This document shows, in pieces, positions 483-8,833 of a stretch of 47,226 bases of DNA; the first letter of the stretch is position 1, and every line of letters starts with the position of its first letter. The notes below the pieces were generated by a model, which was not told the origin of the DNA, did no database searches, and saw nothing but the letters and a program-made list of their open reading frames with translations. Made by a program: the position numbers and the translations under genes. Source of the stretch: Candidatus Omnitrophota bacterium (lineage in GTDB: Bacteria; Omnitrophota; Gorgyraeia; S143-82); contig WGAY01000024.1 in the NCBI GenBank assembly GCA_015494585.1, forward strand, positions 1 through 47,226, given 5' to 3'.

Positions 483-1154
483 CTATCCCTCTACCAAACG
501 GCCCCCCTCTAAGACAAAGGCCCTTTTAAACATCCCTGCTATGTGTCTGGAATGGGTAACGGTTATGAGGGTTATTGTCATTTCTTTACACAAATCTATC
601 AAAAACTCCATTACTCTGTCTTGCATAGAAAGATCCAAATTCCCCGTAGGCTCATCTGCAAGGATAATCCTGGGCCTGTGTACCACTGCCCTCAAAATTG
701 CCACCCTCTGCATCTCTCCTCCCGAAAGCCCGTAAACAGGATCATAGGCCCTATTCTTCAGGCCAAACCTCCCAAGCAACTCAAGCGCCATATCCTTCGC
801 CTGCTCATTAGGATAATTCAATAACATCAACGGAAGCATAACATTTTCAAGGAGATTCAACTCTGGCAATAAGTGATAGAACTGAAATACTATTCCAAGA
901 TTCTTCCTGCGCCACCTTGCCTGATCTGAAGGAGACATAGAAAAAATCGATATTTGGTCAACAAATATCTCTCCAGCATCTGCCTTATCAAGACCGGCTA
1001 TCAAATGGAGTAATGTGCTTTTTCCAGATCCGGATTCTCCAACTATAGCGACCTGATCCCCCTCTTGCAAGGACAAAGAAAGATCGTCTAATACCACCAA
1101 CCTCTGACCTTGTGTCTGTTGGAAACTTTTTGTAAGGCCCTTTATTTCTACCAC
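483..1154 (-). CDS. lolD: ABC transporter ATP-binding protein, LolD/MacB-like
   Basis: Walker A GESGSGKST, signature LSGGEMQR, Walker B RIILADEPTGNLD; LolD-like FQFYHLLPELNLLENVMLP. Confidence 0.82.
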   Translation of the reverse strand: MVEIKGLTKSFQQTQGQRLVVLDDLSLSLQEGDQVAIVGESGSGKSTLLHLIAGLDKADAGEIFVDQISIFSMSPSDQARWRRKNLGIVFQFYHLLPELNLLENVMLPLMLLNYPNEQAKDMALELLGRFGLKNRAYDPVYGLSGGEMQRVAILRAVVHRPRIILADEPTGNLDLSMQDRVMEFLIDLCKEMTITLITVTHSRHIAGMFKRAFVLEGGRLVEG

Positions 1155-1320: not shown

Positions 1321-3255
1321 TTAATTCCAGATAGATATATCGCTCTCATCCAGGGAAACCGTCCCTGTTTCTCGGGAGGCCTGCCTGTCAGAAGAAATCT
1401 TTTTCTCCAAGACCTGTGCCACTGCATCGGCGCAGGAAAAGACCCTACGGCCGTTATTCCAACCAACCGATGAACAGTTTATCTCCTTCAGGGCATCTAC
1501 TATCTCAGAAAGGGCTACATCCTTGGTAAGGCATATAGAAAGCAATTTTCCCATAGTCTCTAGATGGGAGGAAACACAGCCTCCTGCCTTCTCCAGTCGC
1601 AATAATATCTCCCTTAAATTACCACCACCATCCTGATTTATAGTCACCAGAAGATTTCCACAGGCAGTTGCAACCTTTATAGTAGAACCAAACAAGACCT
1701 CTGGCCTCTCTTTCAAGGGTAAGGTTAGGAGCCCATCAAACTCAACAGCCTGTTTTTTCTCCTGTCTCTCTTCATTTTCAAAAGAGACCTGCATAGGAAA
1801 GAATCGCACTGCGACGGCGTCGAACAACACTGCCTTTTTTAACCCATCGACATCCAGTGCACTTCCCCTTAGAGAAATATCAACTAGGCCATCCCAGTGC
1901 TCTTGAAAAACAGACTGCATCTTGTACCACCAATCAAGACCTACATCTCCAGCCACAACGAAAATACGTTTCACATCCTCAGGAACATACTCCAGCCCCT
2001 GTACAGAAGTGTTCTTCCGTAAAAAAGCCACGAGTTCCTCAGAATAAAAACCCCTCTGCCTGCTAACCTCATCGAACAAGGCAAAAACCCCCTGGGCCTT
2101 TCCATCCAGAATAGAGTTCTGAGGACATACCCCACCAGCTTCTTCCTCTTCTATCTGCCCAAGCCCAGATAGAATAGAGATATTCCTCCTCTTCAGATGG
2201 CGCTCTTCTAGAAGACTAGATCTATAGGCAGGGAAAACCCCCCTTTCCTTTGCCAACTGCCAAGAGGCCTTATGTGCGGTATCCGAAATAAACTTCGCTA
2301 GCTTCTTACCCAAGACTATTGCTGCATCTGAATCATAAGGAATCCCCAAATAACACAGACATTGCGCCCAGCCCGCAAAACCCAGATGGATCCTGCGCAG
2401 ACGTTTCACATTACTAGAAATCTCCGCAGGATAAAATTCATTCAAATCTATCAGGTCATCCAGCAACCTGACGCTGTGCTCTATCCTATCCGATAATCTC
2501 TCCCAATCGAAGTCCCATCCAACGCTACCCCTTTTTAAAAAACGCAATAGATTTACTCTCCCTGAAGGAACCGCCTCACCAGGATATAGCAAAACCCCTC
2601 CCTCTAGGCCTATCCTCCTGCTCCCCAGGGCAGGGGCATCCTGCAACTGCTTAATCCCTGGGAAAATAAATCTCATTCCTACCCCTGATCTTCTGACTGA
2701 ATCAAAAAGAAGATGAAAATCCCTTATCCTTAGTTTTTTAATCTCTGTTATTTCCTTGCCAGGCACAGAAACCTCATCGTCAGGGCCCAAAGAAAAGAGC
2801 TCTTCTGACACAAGCAAGTTGAGATTCAGATAATTCGCCTTTCTGCCCCTTAAGACCTCCAACAAGGCAAGGCCGTTTTCGGTCAAGGCATTGACAGTTA
2901 TCCATATCCTGCGCCAATCTACTATCGTTGCCTCCAATAGCATCAGGAAAGAAATCCACTCGGACTTCGAAAAACCCACATTGGTAAGGTCTATCCCTAC
3001 ACTCACATTGTATTTCCGATAAGTGGAGAGGAGCTTCATAAGGTCAAATACAGAAGAAAATTCCCTTGGCTGGGGCAAAGAGATATAGCGACAGGAAAAA
3101 TGACCCGCTGTGTCCACGACAAACGGAGGGAGAAAAAGCTCCTCACCCGAAAGCATTTCTTCCCAGATAACCATCTGCCGCCGTATATCTACTATACTGC
3201 GGCCATAACGCTTCTCTACAGAAGATAAAGACTGTAATAAAGGTGATAAATCCAT
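1321..3255 (-). CDS. Class II (adenosylcobalamin) ribonucleotide reductase-like protein lacking catalytic motifs; C-terminal TSCPD-like domain
   Basis: Collinear with NrdJ: PALG...VNLLRFL, IDLNEFYP...RIHLGFAGWAQCLCYLGIPYDSDAA, SRQRGFYSEEL, VQGLEYVPEDVKRIFVVAGDVG.DWWYKMQSVFQEHWD, FGSTIKVATACGNLLVTIN...KAGGCVSSHLETMGKLLS...CSSVGW...SCADAVA. The NPCGE region is replaced by LEGGV. Confidence 0.7.
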   Translation of the reverse strand: MDLSPLLQSLSSVEKRYGRSIVDIRRQMVIWEEMLSGEELFLPPFVVDTAGHFSCRYISLPQPREFSSVFDLMKLLSTYRKYNVSVGIDLTNVGFSKSEWISFLMLLEATIVDWRRIWITVNALTENGLALLEVLRGRKANYLNLNLLVSEELFSLGPDDEVSVPGKEITEIKKLRIRDFHLLFDSVRRSGVGMRFIFPGIKQLQDAPALGSRRIGLEGGVLLYPGEAVPSGRVNLLRFLKRGSVGWDFDWERLSDRIEHSVRLLDDLIDLNEFYPAEISSNVKRLRRIHLGFAGWAQCLCYLGIPYDSDAAIVLGKKLAKFISDTAHKASWQLAKERGVFPAYRSSLLEERHLKRRNISILSGLGQIEEEEAGGVCPQNSILDGKAQGVFALFDEVSRQRGFYSEELVAFLRKNTSVQGLEYVPEDVKRIFVVAGDVGLDWWYKMQSVFQEHWDGLVDISLRGSALDVDGLKKAVLFDAVAVRFFPMQVSFENEERQEKKQAVEFDGLLTLPLKERPEVLFGSTIKVATACGNLLVTINQDGGGNLREILLRLEKAGGCVSSHLETMGKLLSICLTKDVALSEIVDALKEINCSSVGWNNGRRVFSCADAVAQVLEKKISSDRQASRETGTVSLDESDISIWN

Positions 3256-3323: not shown

Positions 3324-5207
3324 TCAGTCAGTATCTCTCTTCTTCTTAATAAACACATATAGCAGATTTATCGTATCAAGACCTATGCCGGGCAGGCGGT
3401 AGGCATCGCCCAGGGTCTCGGGCCTGTTTGCCTTTAGTTTCTCCCTCGCCTCTCGGGAAAGGGATATAACCTTGTCGTAGTCAAAATCCTGCGGTATCTT
3501 TACCCTGTCAAGGCGTTTTACCTTTTCTGCATTGCGCCTTGCCCTTGCGATAAATCCTTCGTATTTTATGTCTTCCTCAACAACTGCGATTGCCTCCTTC
3601 TCAAAATGGCTTAAATCCAGAAGGCCTTCCTTTTCTAAAACACCCCTCACATCATCAAGCCATATCCCCGGCCTCTTTAATAGTTCCTTAATAGTTATGC
3701 CCCCGTTTATCTCCTGTCCCTTTTCTGAGATGATGTCCTTTATCGCCTCTCCAGGAGCCTTTGTTTTATCAAAGGTAATAACCAATTGGTTTATCTGTCT
3801 TTTCTTTTTCTCAAGAAGGGAATACCTTTCATCATCTATCAATCCCAATCTTTTTCCAATGGGCATAAGCCTTATATCTGCATTGTCTTCTCTCAAATAC
3901 AGCCTGTGCTCTACGCGCGAAGAAAGCATTCTATAGGGCTCGTTTGTGCCTTTTCCAACCAAATCATCTATCAATACCCCTATGTATGCCTCATCCCTAT
4001 CCAGAATCAGGGGCGATTTTCCCAAAACCTTGCAAGCGGCGTTTATCCCTGCAACTATTCCCTGGGCCGCTGCCTCTTCGTAGCCGGTCGTGCCGTTTAT
4101 CTGGCCCGCTAAAAAGAGATTTTCTATCAATCGCGTCTCAAGGGTATGTTTCAACTGGCGTGGGTCAACGAAGTCGTGCTCTATGCCATAGCCTGGCTTT
4201 AACACAATTGCCTCCTCAAACCCGGGAATGGAATGTATCATCTTCTCCTGCACGTCCCAGGGCAGACTATTTGAGATACCATTGGGATAGACCTCAACCG
4301 TACTCCAGCCCTCTGGCTCAACGAATATCTGGTGTCTGTTGTGATGGGGAAATTTTACTATCTTATCCTCAACCGAAGGACAATAACGTACACCCGTTCC
4401 TTTGATAATACCCGTATACAGGGGAGACCTTGACAGGCCTTCGCGAATAATTCTGTGCGTCTCTTCTGTGGTATAGGTAATATAACAGGATGCCTGCTGG
4501 AAATCCTTCTTCCGCGAATAAAAAGAAAAATACGGGATAGGCGTATCTCCCTTTTGCTCTATCATCCTTGAAAAATCAAGGCTCCTTGCGTCAAGGCGCG
4601 GGCAGGTGCCTGTCTTAAACCTGCCCATAGAAAACCCAAGCCCTTTTAGATTTTCTGCCAGTTCAATAGATGCTGGATCCGTAAGCCTGCCGCCTGAAAA
4701 ATTATCCATACCGATGTGGATTAATCCGTGCAGGAATGTCCCCGGGCAAAGGATTACTATCTGAGAAAAAAATCTCCTGCCAAAGCCGTCTTCAACACCT
4801 ATGGCCTTGCCATCGTTTACGATAACCCTCCTTACCTCTGCCTGCCACACAAACAGGCGCTCCTGATTAAGGACTACCTTTCGTATATAGTCGCGATATA
4901 GATACCTGTCTGCCTGCGCCCTGCGGCTGCGCACTGCCGGGCCCTTGCTCTTATTCAAGATGCGAAACTGCATACCAGTCTCATCTATTGCCTTAGCCAT
5001 CTCCCCGCCTAATGCGTCTATCTCGCGCACAAGCTGCCCCTTGCCGATCCCTCCAATTGCAGGGTTGCAGGACATCTCGCCGATCTTGTCAATAGAATGG
5101 GTAATAAGGAGCGTATCAACCCCCATGCGCGCGCTGGCAAGCGCTGCCTCTATGCCTGCATGCCCTGCACCGACGACAATGACATCCACATCTTTACCTA
5201 TCTTCAT
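3324..5207 (-). CDS. mnmG: tRNA uridine-5-carboxymethylaminomethyl modification enzyme MnmG (GidA)
   Basis: DVIVVGAGHAGIEAALASARMG, SCNPAIGGIGKGQLVREIDALGG, PSVEDKIVKFPHHNRHQIFVEPEG, INGTTGYEEAAAQGI. Confidence 0.97.
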   Translation of the reverse strand: MKIGKDVDVIVVGAGHAGIEAALASARMGVDTLLITHSIDKIGEMSCNPAIGGIGKGQLVREIDALGGEMAKAIDETGMQFRILNKSKGPAVRSRRAQADRYLYRDYIRKVVLNQERLFVWQAEVRRVIVNDGKAIGVEDGFGRRFFSQIVILCPGTFLHGLIHIGMDNFSGGRLTDPASIELAENLKGLGFSMGRFKTGTCPRLDARSLDFSRMIEQKGDTPIPYFSFYSRKKDFQQASCYITYTTEETHRIIREGLSRSPLYTGIIKGTGVRYCPSVEDKIVKFPHHNRHQIFVEPEGWSTVEVYPNGISNSLPWDVQEKMIHSIPGFEEAIVLKPGYGIEHDFVDPRQLKHTLETRLIENLFLAGQINGTTGYEEAAAQGIVAGINAACKVLGKSPLILDRDEAYIGVLIDDLVGKGTNEPYRMLSSRVEHRLYLREDNADIRLMPIGKRLGLIDDERYSLLEKKKRQINQLVITFDKTKAPGEAIKDIISEKGQEINGGITIKELLKRPGIWLDDVRGVLEKEGLLDLSHFEKEAIAVVEEDIKYEGFIARARRNAEKVKRLDRVKIPQDFDYDKVISLSREAREKLKANRPETLGDAYRLPGIGLDTINLLYVFIKKKRDTD

Positions 5208-7582: not shown

Positions 7583-8710
7583 TTAATCCATAAAAATATC
7601 TAAGTATCTTTTATATACAAACACCCGTCCGTATTTTTTTGTTTCATCCATATGGTCAAGGATGCCAAGCCCAACAAGCCGGTCAATAACCTTTTGCGCT
7701 CCCTGCCGGGTAAATCCTGTCCATTCCCGAATTTTTGCAACATTAACTATGGGTAATTGAAATAATCTTGGCAATATCTTCATTGTATTTTCAGCGGCAA
7801 CCCTCCCAAGAGACTGAATCTTTCGCATATCCTCTTCTCTTAATATCGTAATCTTTTTTACCGTCTCTATAGCCTCATCGGCGGTTTCTATCACTCCATC
7901 CAGGAAAAAATCCAGCCATTTTTCTATTTCTCCTCTATGATATTTGTCCAATCGCTCATAATAAACATCGCGATGTTTTTTAAAATACCAAGATAAAAAT
8001 AACACCGGCTGCTCCAATAATTTTGTTAAATGCAGATAAATAGTAATCAACATCCGGCCTGTTCTGCCATTGCCGTCTAAAAAAGGATGGATAGTCTCAA
8101 ATTGGGCATGGATAATCCCAGCCTTTACAACCGGCAAAAGGCTATCTTCTTGATGCAAAAATTTCTCAAAATCACTAAGCGCCCTTTCCATCTCATAAGG
8201 GGGAGGTGGGACAAAATATGCATTGGAAGGAGAAGTCCCCCCAATCCAGTTTTGGGACCTGCGAAAATTGCCAGGATCAGAAAAGTGCGTTTTCCGTCCG
8301 TCCTTCATTAATTCCCGGTGTATTTCCTTAATCAACCTGAGGCTAAGAGGCATCTCCTGCAAACGCTTAAGCCCATAATTCAATGCCCTGATATAATGCA
8401 AAATATCATTTACGTCATCCGGCATTTTACTCGAAACCTTTGATTCTGCTTCAATGGCGTTAATCATTGTGGCCTGCGTCCCCTCTATCTGGCTGGATGA
8501 GGCCGCATCTTTGCGGATATACATAAAAAGAAAAAAATCCACATCCGGTAATAATTGTGTGATACCATCCAGCTTACCCAACTTAAGTGTTGCAAGATCA
8601 GCCTTTCTAATTAGCTCAGCAGACAAAGGGAATCCTTCTTCTGGCGGGAAAGGGCCAGGGATAAATGCTTGATAGCCTTGAGGTTGGGTTATATATTCTC
8701 CTAATATCAC
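7583..8710 (-). CDS. Fic family protein (Fic_N + Fic + C-terminal winged helix), N-terminal inhibitory-helix type
   Basis: FIC core HPFLDGNGRTGR; N-terminal inhibitory motif SSQIEG; C-terminal HTH-like FTRQGAQKVIDRLVGLGI. Start revised from TTG 8752 to GTG 8710, which has AGAGG upstream; the operator array then falls outside the CDS. Confidence 0.88.
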   Translation of the reverse strand: MILGEYITQPQGYQAFIPGPFPPEEGFPLSAELIRKADLATLKLGKLDGITQLLPDVDFFLFMYIRKDAASSSQIEGTQATMINAIEAESKVSSKMPDDVNDILHYIRALNYGLKRLQEMPLSLRLIKEIHRELMKDGRKTHFSDPGNFRRSQNWIGGTSPSNAYFVPPPPYEMERALSDFEKFLHQEDSLLPVVKAGIIHAQFETIHPFLDGNGRTGRMLITIYLHLTKLLEQPVLFLSWYFKKHRDVYYERLDKYHRGEIEKWLDFFLDGVIETADEAIETVKKITILREEDMRKIQSLGRVAAENTMKILPRLFQLPIVNVAKIREWTGFTRQGAQKVIDRLVGLGILDHMDETKKYGRVFVYKRYLDIFMD

Positions 8711-8723
8711 AAAACACCTCTTT

Positions 8724-8833
8724 TGTTTACATCTCTCCAAAGATGCAAACAATATAGCACATTCTGTTTACATTCTCAAGGGAATGTCAACGCTTTGCTG
8801 TGTTTTGTTTACATTGTATGGCAGATGTAAACA
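8724..8833. promoter_or_regulatory. Three tandem palindromic operator-like sites upstream of fic
   Basis: 8724-8751 TGTTTACATCTCTCCAAAGATGCAAACA; 8765-8792 TGTTTACATTCTCAAGGGAATGTCAACG; 8806-8833 TGTTTACATTGTATGGCAGATGTAAACA; exact 41-bp period; arms TGTTTACAT/ATGTAAACA. Confidence 0.8.
8751..8779 (-). promoter_or_regulatory. fic promoter
   Basis: -35 TTGAGA (8779-8774), 17-nt spacer, -10 TATATT (8756-8751), interleaved with the first two palindromes. Confidence 0.5.

Follow-up and report, generated by a model that had tools for sequence, protein, structure and literature searches.

Does an open reading frame that resembles a class II ribonucleotide reductase (RNR), but appears to lack its active site, encode a displaced enzyme, a decaying pseudogene or a protein retained for another job? 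The question is raised by a frame of 644 codons that starts with ATG and runs from position 3255 to 1321 on the minus strand of the window (the whole 47,226-nucleotide stretch analysed, which is contig C24 of a genome that is 94% complete). The initial annotation placed the gene in the same interval, to which we add the strand, and described it as a full-length NrdJ homolog with a TSCPD-like C terminus. Pfam searches agree on the family, with matches to Ribonuc_red_lgC (E = 1.3e-24), which establishes homology to the RNR barrel domain, and to TSCPD (E = 1.8e-14; 54.3 bits against a cut-off of 22.8). The top NCBIfam model is PRK08665, the B12-dependent RNR, at 263.6 bits, far short of its curated cut-off (961 bits), and the nearest solved structure in a sequence search is that of Thermotoga maritima NrdJ. 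"Full-length" proved inexact: the protein, hereafter pseudo-NrdJ (Table 1), has 644 amino acids (aa) compared with ~770 in active NrdJ, and lacks ~50 residues at the N terminus, a number of internal loops and the entire C-terminal zinc-finger/redox tail when aligned with eight active NrdJs from the same class.

Table 1. Coordinates of pseudo-NrdJ, its parts and its neighbours (window positions unless a locus is named)
Feature	Position	Strand	Basis or comment
pseudo-NrdJ, catalytically dead class II RNR homologue, 644 aa	1321..3255	-	Pfam, NCBIfam, solved structures, alignments
N-terminal helix, residues 10-34	3154..3228	-	Orthologue alignment; predicted helix, pLDDT ~93
Erased finger loop and second active-site Cys, residues 214-236	2548..2616	-	Alignment
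Best-kept helical part of barrel, residues 241-357	2185..2535	-	19/34 kept; dN/dS ~0.045 (residues 223-362)
TSCPD (IscU-like) domain, residues 516-618	1402..1710	-	Pfam, alignment; IscU-like fold from PMC9669993
Codon of C532	1660-1662	-	TSCPD Cys
Codon of C560	1576-1578	-	TSCPD Cys
Codon of C594	1474-1476	-	TSCPD Cys
Codon of C608	1432-1434	-	TSCPD Cys
mnmG (gidA)	3324..5207	-	Directly upstream of pseudo-NrdJ, 68 bp gap
ABC transporter ATPase	483..1154	-	Downstream of pseudo-NrdJ; same neighbour in 83%-identical orthologue (G003)
fliQ-adjacent pseudo-NrdJs	L069:7475-9382, L070:7205-9109		

Three orthologues, 83%, 45% and 45% identical to the window copy, were found, all in the same small genus of uncultured Candidatus Omnitrophota, and every sequenced species of this genus, four in all, shares the losses described below. 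Among 292 genomes sampled from the class, no pseudo-NrdJ was found outside this one genus; its four copies reach more than 1,100 bits, compared with 363 bits for the next best match, an ordinary NrdJ of 789 aa. All four genus genomes are drafts (90-96% complete), and three of them are titled metagenome-assembled. In the tree, the four pseudo-NrdJs form a single clade with 100% support, on a stem of 3.8 changes per site that is much longer than the branches within the genus and, because of its length, prevents placement of the exact sister.

The alignment with the eight active NrdJs bears out the losses that had been read from the window copy alone, namely, those of NPCGE, the later cysteine and the loops. 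NPCGE of the active enzymes becomes GLEGG, and the N-x-C-x-E finger loop that carries the thiyl-radical cysteine is absent from all four orthologues; the residue-by-residue register of this segment moves slightly between aligners, with no conserved N, C or E left in it across the four. The segment with the second active-site cysteine reads EAVPSGRVNL; the glycine-rich loop KSGGGTGFSFSRLRPKNS is replaced by a stretch shorter by 10 residues; the loop-2 region QGGTRRGANMGILRVDHPD is largely deleted; parts of the barrel are deleted as well; and the phosphate loop APTGTIS is missing together with ~25 residues that follow it. The two active-site redox columns (pseudo-NrdJ residues 56 and 229) hold cysteine in 8/8 active enzymes and in none of the four orthologues, which also lack all six cysteines of the C-terminal zinc/redox tail, a feature of most, not all, NrdJs. 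We then counted the residues invariant in active NrdJs that persist in all four orthologues. The C-terminal tail retains 0 of 19, the effector/specificity-site region (residues 111-205) 1 of 52, the phosphate-loop surroundings 2 of 30 and the finger-loop surroundings 5 of 22. Retention is higher in the helical core (19 of 34) and in TSCPD (27 of 64). The cysteines follow the same division: among 15 that are invariant in active NrdJs, the 11 catalytic, redox and tail ones are lost and the four in TSCPD are kept in all orthologues. These four, C532, C560, C594 and C608, are the sole invariant cysteines of pseudo-NrdJ.

At the level of sequence, then, four related species have lost every catalytic, redox and allosteric signature of NrdJ. 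No cysteine outside TSCPD is conserved, and the initial call of catalytic death holds. Because the tested defining features of active NrdJs are missing, pseudo-NrdJ falls outside that family; it is, as judged from comparison of its residues, a class II RNR pseudoenzyme that descends from the family without being a member. The same survey bears on the roles that had been suggested initially. Nucleotide sensing is disfavoured because only 1 of 52 invariant residues remains in the specificity-site region. Cobalamin sensing is disfavoured, too, given the deletions in the barrel and the scarcity or absence of B12-binding domains in the genus (1, 0, 0 and 2 per genome, compared with 3-22 in eight relatives); scaffolding is the suggestion that fits best. 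The predicted fold is compatible with an NrdJ-derived scaffold. The full-length model (pLDDT 80, pTM 0.69) resembles T. maritima NrdJ (1xjj; Foldseek E = 3.5e-27, TM ~0.61 over ~590 columns), the comparison proposed at the outset, with the reservation that the alignment given to the model contained active NrdJs and so favours their fold.

The frame is open in 4/4 species. For the two closest, we obtained a whole-gene dN/dS of 0.095; the value is 0.045 in residues 223-362, 0.051 in TSCPD and 0.075 in residues 1-36. Ten further gene pairs of these two genomes span 0.019-0.111, and, with dS at ~1, all these values are approximate. In a neutral simulation over the same distance, ~22 stops arose per copy, and none of 300 runs left the frame open. 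Near the N terminus, L10-Q27 comprises 18 consecutive residues that are identical in 4/4 orthologues and mostly unlike those of active NrdJs, and 14 of the 24 invariant positions among residues 4-36 carry a residue absent from the compared active enzymes. These novel invariant residues are a sign of new constraint, not of residual folding alone, and the predicted N-terminal helix is likely a new interaction surface. Thus, the initial argument for selection rather than decay, drawn from an intact frame with the scaffold and TSCPD preserved, gains four orthologues with shared losses, a retained helical core and four retained cysteines; purifying selection evidently maintains the frame together with the helical core, TSCPD with its four cysteines and the new N-terminal helix.

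What might the four cysteines do? Across 68 NrdJ C-termini, which share kinship and do not represent 68 independent events, all four are present in 53, all are absent from 13, and only 2 are mixed; they are gained or lost together, as expected of one metal site. In the model, their predicted sites are a strand-strand turn, a helix start, a loop and the beginning of the last helix, the positions where IscU holds its ligands. The folded first part of the NrdJ C-terminal region has been described as IscU-like; in one cluster, 253 of 600 members have cysteines at the four positions that hold ligands (PMC9669993). Judging by position, this folded part would correspond to Pfam TSCPD. Comparison of TSCPD with IscU profiles gave no sequence match (hhalign probability below 1%), a search of the domain against the sequences of solved structures returned nothing significant, and the domain modelled alone from a single sequence, with no alignment, folded poorly (pLDDT 42) and was set aside. 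Given this lack of a profile match and the poor folding in isolation, metal binding by TSCPD is something that we infer. The Cys-rich C-terminal domain of class II RNRs also drives assembly into higher oligomers, with electrons being shuttled by its last six cysteines (PMC5704485).

No other PF02867 (class I/II reductase) protein was found in the four genus genomes; the separate functional nrdJ for which a search had been suggested is, accordingly, not found elsewhere in the genome. All four encode a class III NrdD with MetE upstream and the activase NrdG downstream, and NrdD and NrdG exceed the curated cut-offs. MetE is the B12-independent methionine synthase, and metE-nrdD-nrdG is a B12-independent set. 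A riboswitch was not detected at any nrdD locus of the genus. MetH, absent from 19/20 genomes tested, is uninformative for this reason. In a relative that keeps active NrdJ (G045), a cobalamin riboswitch (L083:9755-9966, minus strand) is followed by a btuB-like receptor, nrdD, nrdG and metE, with the downstream genes of this B12-starvation set extending to 2742.

The class III enzyme itself is split in all four genus genomes and in four genomes of family f36 (L079:2803-5013, which is on the minus strand of G000:C43; L080, L081 and L082; L184-L187). NrdD ends just past the first zinc-site Cys motif. A separate small ORF, of 55 aa in the genome of the window, carries the glycyl-radical motif (RVTGFFRPVQ-WNKGK-EEFKDRK) and is located between nrdD and nrdG with its own start and ribosome-binding site. 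This ORF may encode a GrcA-like detached radical subunit, of which we found no description in the literature searched. A 1,492-aa NrdD frame in another genome (G012:C26:565-4587) matches NRDD in three pieces, probably due to inteins. As regards iron-sulfur assembly, none of the four genomes (G000-G003) yielded IscU/NifU_N and three contain SufB, mostly the reverse of the pattern in other Omnitrophota.

The genomic neighbourhood is of limited help. Five relatives have active nrdJ in the vicinity of mnmG, and the position of pseudo-NrdJ next to this gene is accordingly compatible with vertical descent. Two of the four species have pseudo-NrdJ 2-13 bp upstream of fliQ, which is followed by fliR-flhB-flhA-flhF-flhG; in the window species, the flagellar cluster is elsewhere and does not include it. 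The context varies between species and hence yields no shared partner. An anti-phage role was considered and rejected, with no PADLOC match to pseudo-NrdJ. A SoFic-type Fic-domain protein (window 7583-8752, minus strand; 379 bits in PADLOC) lies amid housekeeping genes.

Beyond being non-catalytic and under selection, the role of pseudo-NrdJ is entirely a matter of what we infer. We consider it fairly probable that NrdJ became a pseudoenzyme after dNTP synthesis had moved to NrdD, and that it now serves as a metal-binding, probably oligomeric, non-catalytic scaffold. The presumed order of events would be that B12 dependence ended in this lineage; that the B12-repressed backup, class III NrdD, became the sole dNTP route; and that NrdJ, released from catalysis, diverged rapidly before becoming fixed in a different function. 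In the protein, the TSCPD/IscU-like domain would bind a metal ion or an Fe-S cluster via C532, C560, C594 and C608, the degenerate barrel would form a structural platform, and the conserved N-terminal helix would bind a putative partner. A narrower version, in which the RNR turned into an Fe-S/metal scaffold after the class III switch, with TSCPD as the working part in a genus where no IscU was found, strikes us as rather unlikely. Much the same holds for an Fe-S/metal-delivery scaffold that has the barrel as a mere carrier and could serve NrdG or other proteins, which we rate as unlikely. Such delivery would suit the reported IscU-like character of the TSCPD region, with cluster-ligand cysteines in part of the family (PMC9669993), the four TSCPD cysteines being the sole invariant ones, and IscU/NifU_N, missing in 4/4 genus genomes, being present in 9/12 relatives. 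However, SufB in 3/4 genus genomes means that an Fe-S assembly route exists, G045, with SufB and without IscU, has an ordinary NrdJ with the same domain, and TSCPD has no sequence-profile match to IscU.

Regulation of NrdD or of dNTP supply by pseudo-NrdJ, as an inactive subunit-like partner or a nucleotide sensor, is doubtful. The replacement of NrdJ by NrdD in this very genus and the regulatory roles gained by inactive RNR subunits elsewhere (PMC5469499) speak for it, but the specificity-site region is essentially gone, pseudo-NrdJ is not near nrdD in 4/4 genomes, and a similarly split NrdD occurs in family f36, where no pseudo-NrdJ was found. The initial proposal that a true RNR is regulated survives solely with class III NrdD as the target, and nothing links the two genes. 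A flagellar biogenesis or export accessory, suggested by the fliQ-adjacent copies in 2/4 species, is decidedly improbable, given that the window species and its close relative have a flagellar locus without pseudo-NrdJ; active nrdJ of relatives is likewise found near mnmG, and the gene may thus have reached the flagellar locus later. Decay after the loss of B12 dependence could account for the loss of every catalytic motif and for the very long stem branch, and is nevertheless rejected as highly improbable by dN/dS and the neutral simulation, as well as by open frames in four species and conserved blocks including the 18 identical residues. Least credible of all is an RNR that remains active with a relocated site: the overall NrdJ fold of the model would be in its favour, but, with the glycine-rich and phosphate loops gone and no conserved cysteine outside TSCPD, this reading, too, is rejected.

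The NrdJ-derived scaffold that we favour has partial counterparts among known systems. With NrdJ of the PRK08665 type (T. maritima 1xje), pseudo-NrdJ shares the barrel, the helical core, the four-Cys TSCPD, the predicted fold and, with NrdJ of relatives, the location near mnmG, whereas the radical cysteine, both active-site redox cysteines, the six-Cys tail, and the substrate, effector and phosphate loops are gone. NrdJb, the C-terminal subunit of the split class II RNR of Pseudomonas aeruginosa (PMC4520616), corresponds to the TSCPD-containing region but keeps the redox/zinc tail and works with active NrdJa; pseudo-NrdJ has lost the tail and has a dead barrel attached. For the IscU/NifU_N scaffold, a structural likeness to the folded NrdJ C-terminal domain, including the positions of Cys ligands, has been published (PMC9669993), although TSCPD of pseudo-NrdJ shows no detectable profile match. 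Dead RNR large subunits are known from herpesviruses, for example, HCMV UL45 (PMC5469499), and likewise lost catalysis while being kept for another function. Those proteins are class I, viral and act on host signalling, whereas pseudo-NrdJ is class II, bacterial and carries an IscU-like four-Cys domain; beyond the superfamily, they are unrelated.

Pseudoenzymes are common; we found none derived from a bacterial or class II RNR in the open-access literature, and subscription papers may differ. Here, an enzyme that was essential seems to have been put to non-enzymatic use, and the retained metE-nrdD-nrdG set, the undetected riboswitch and the dead NrdJ trace a clear path by which such an enzyme could evolve into a scaffold. 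Pseudo-NrdJ is also a natural separation experiment, in which 11 cysteines of nucleotide reduction were removed and the four of the TSCPD/IscU-like domain were kept, so that the function of this widespread domain becomes testable free of a background of catalysis. If the Fe-S/metal scaffold reading is true, the function of TSCPD would be separable from nucleotide reduction.
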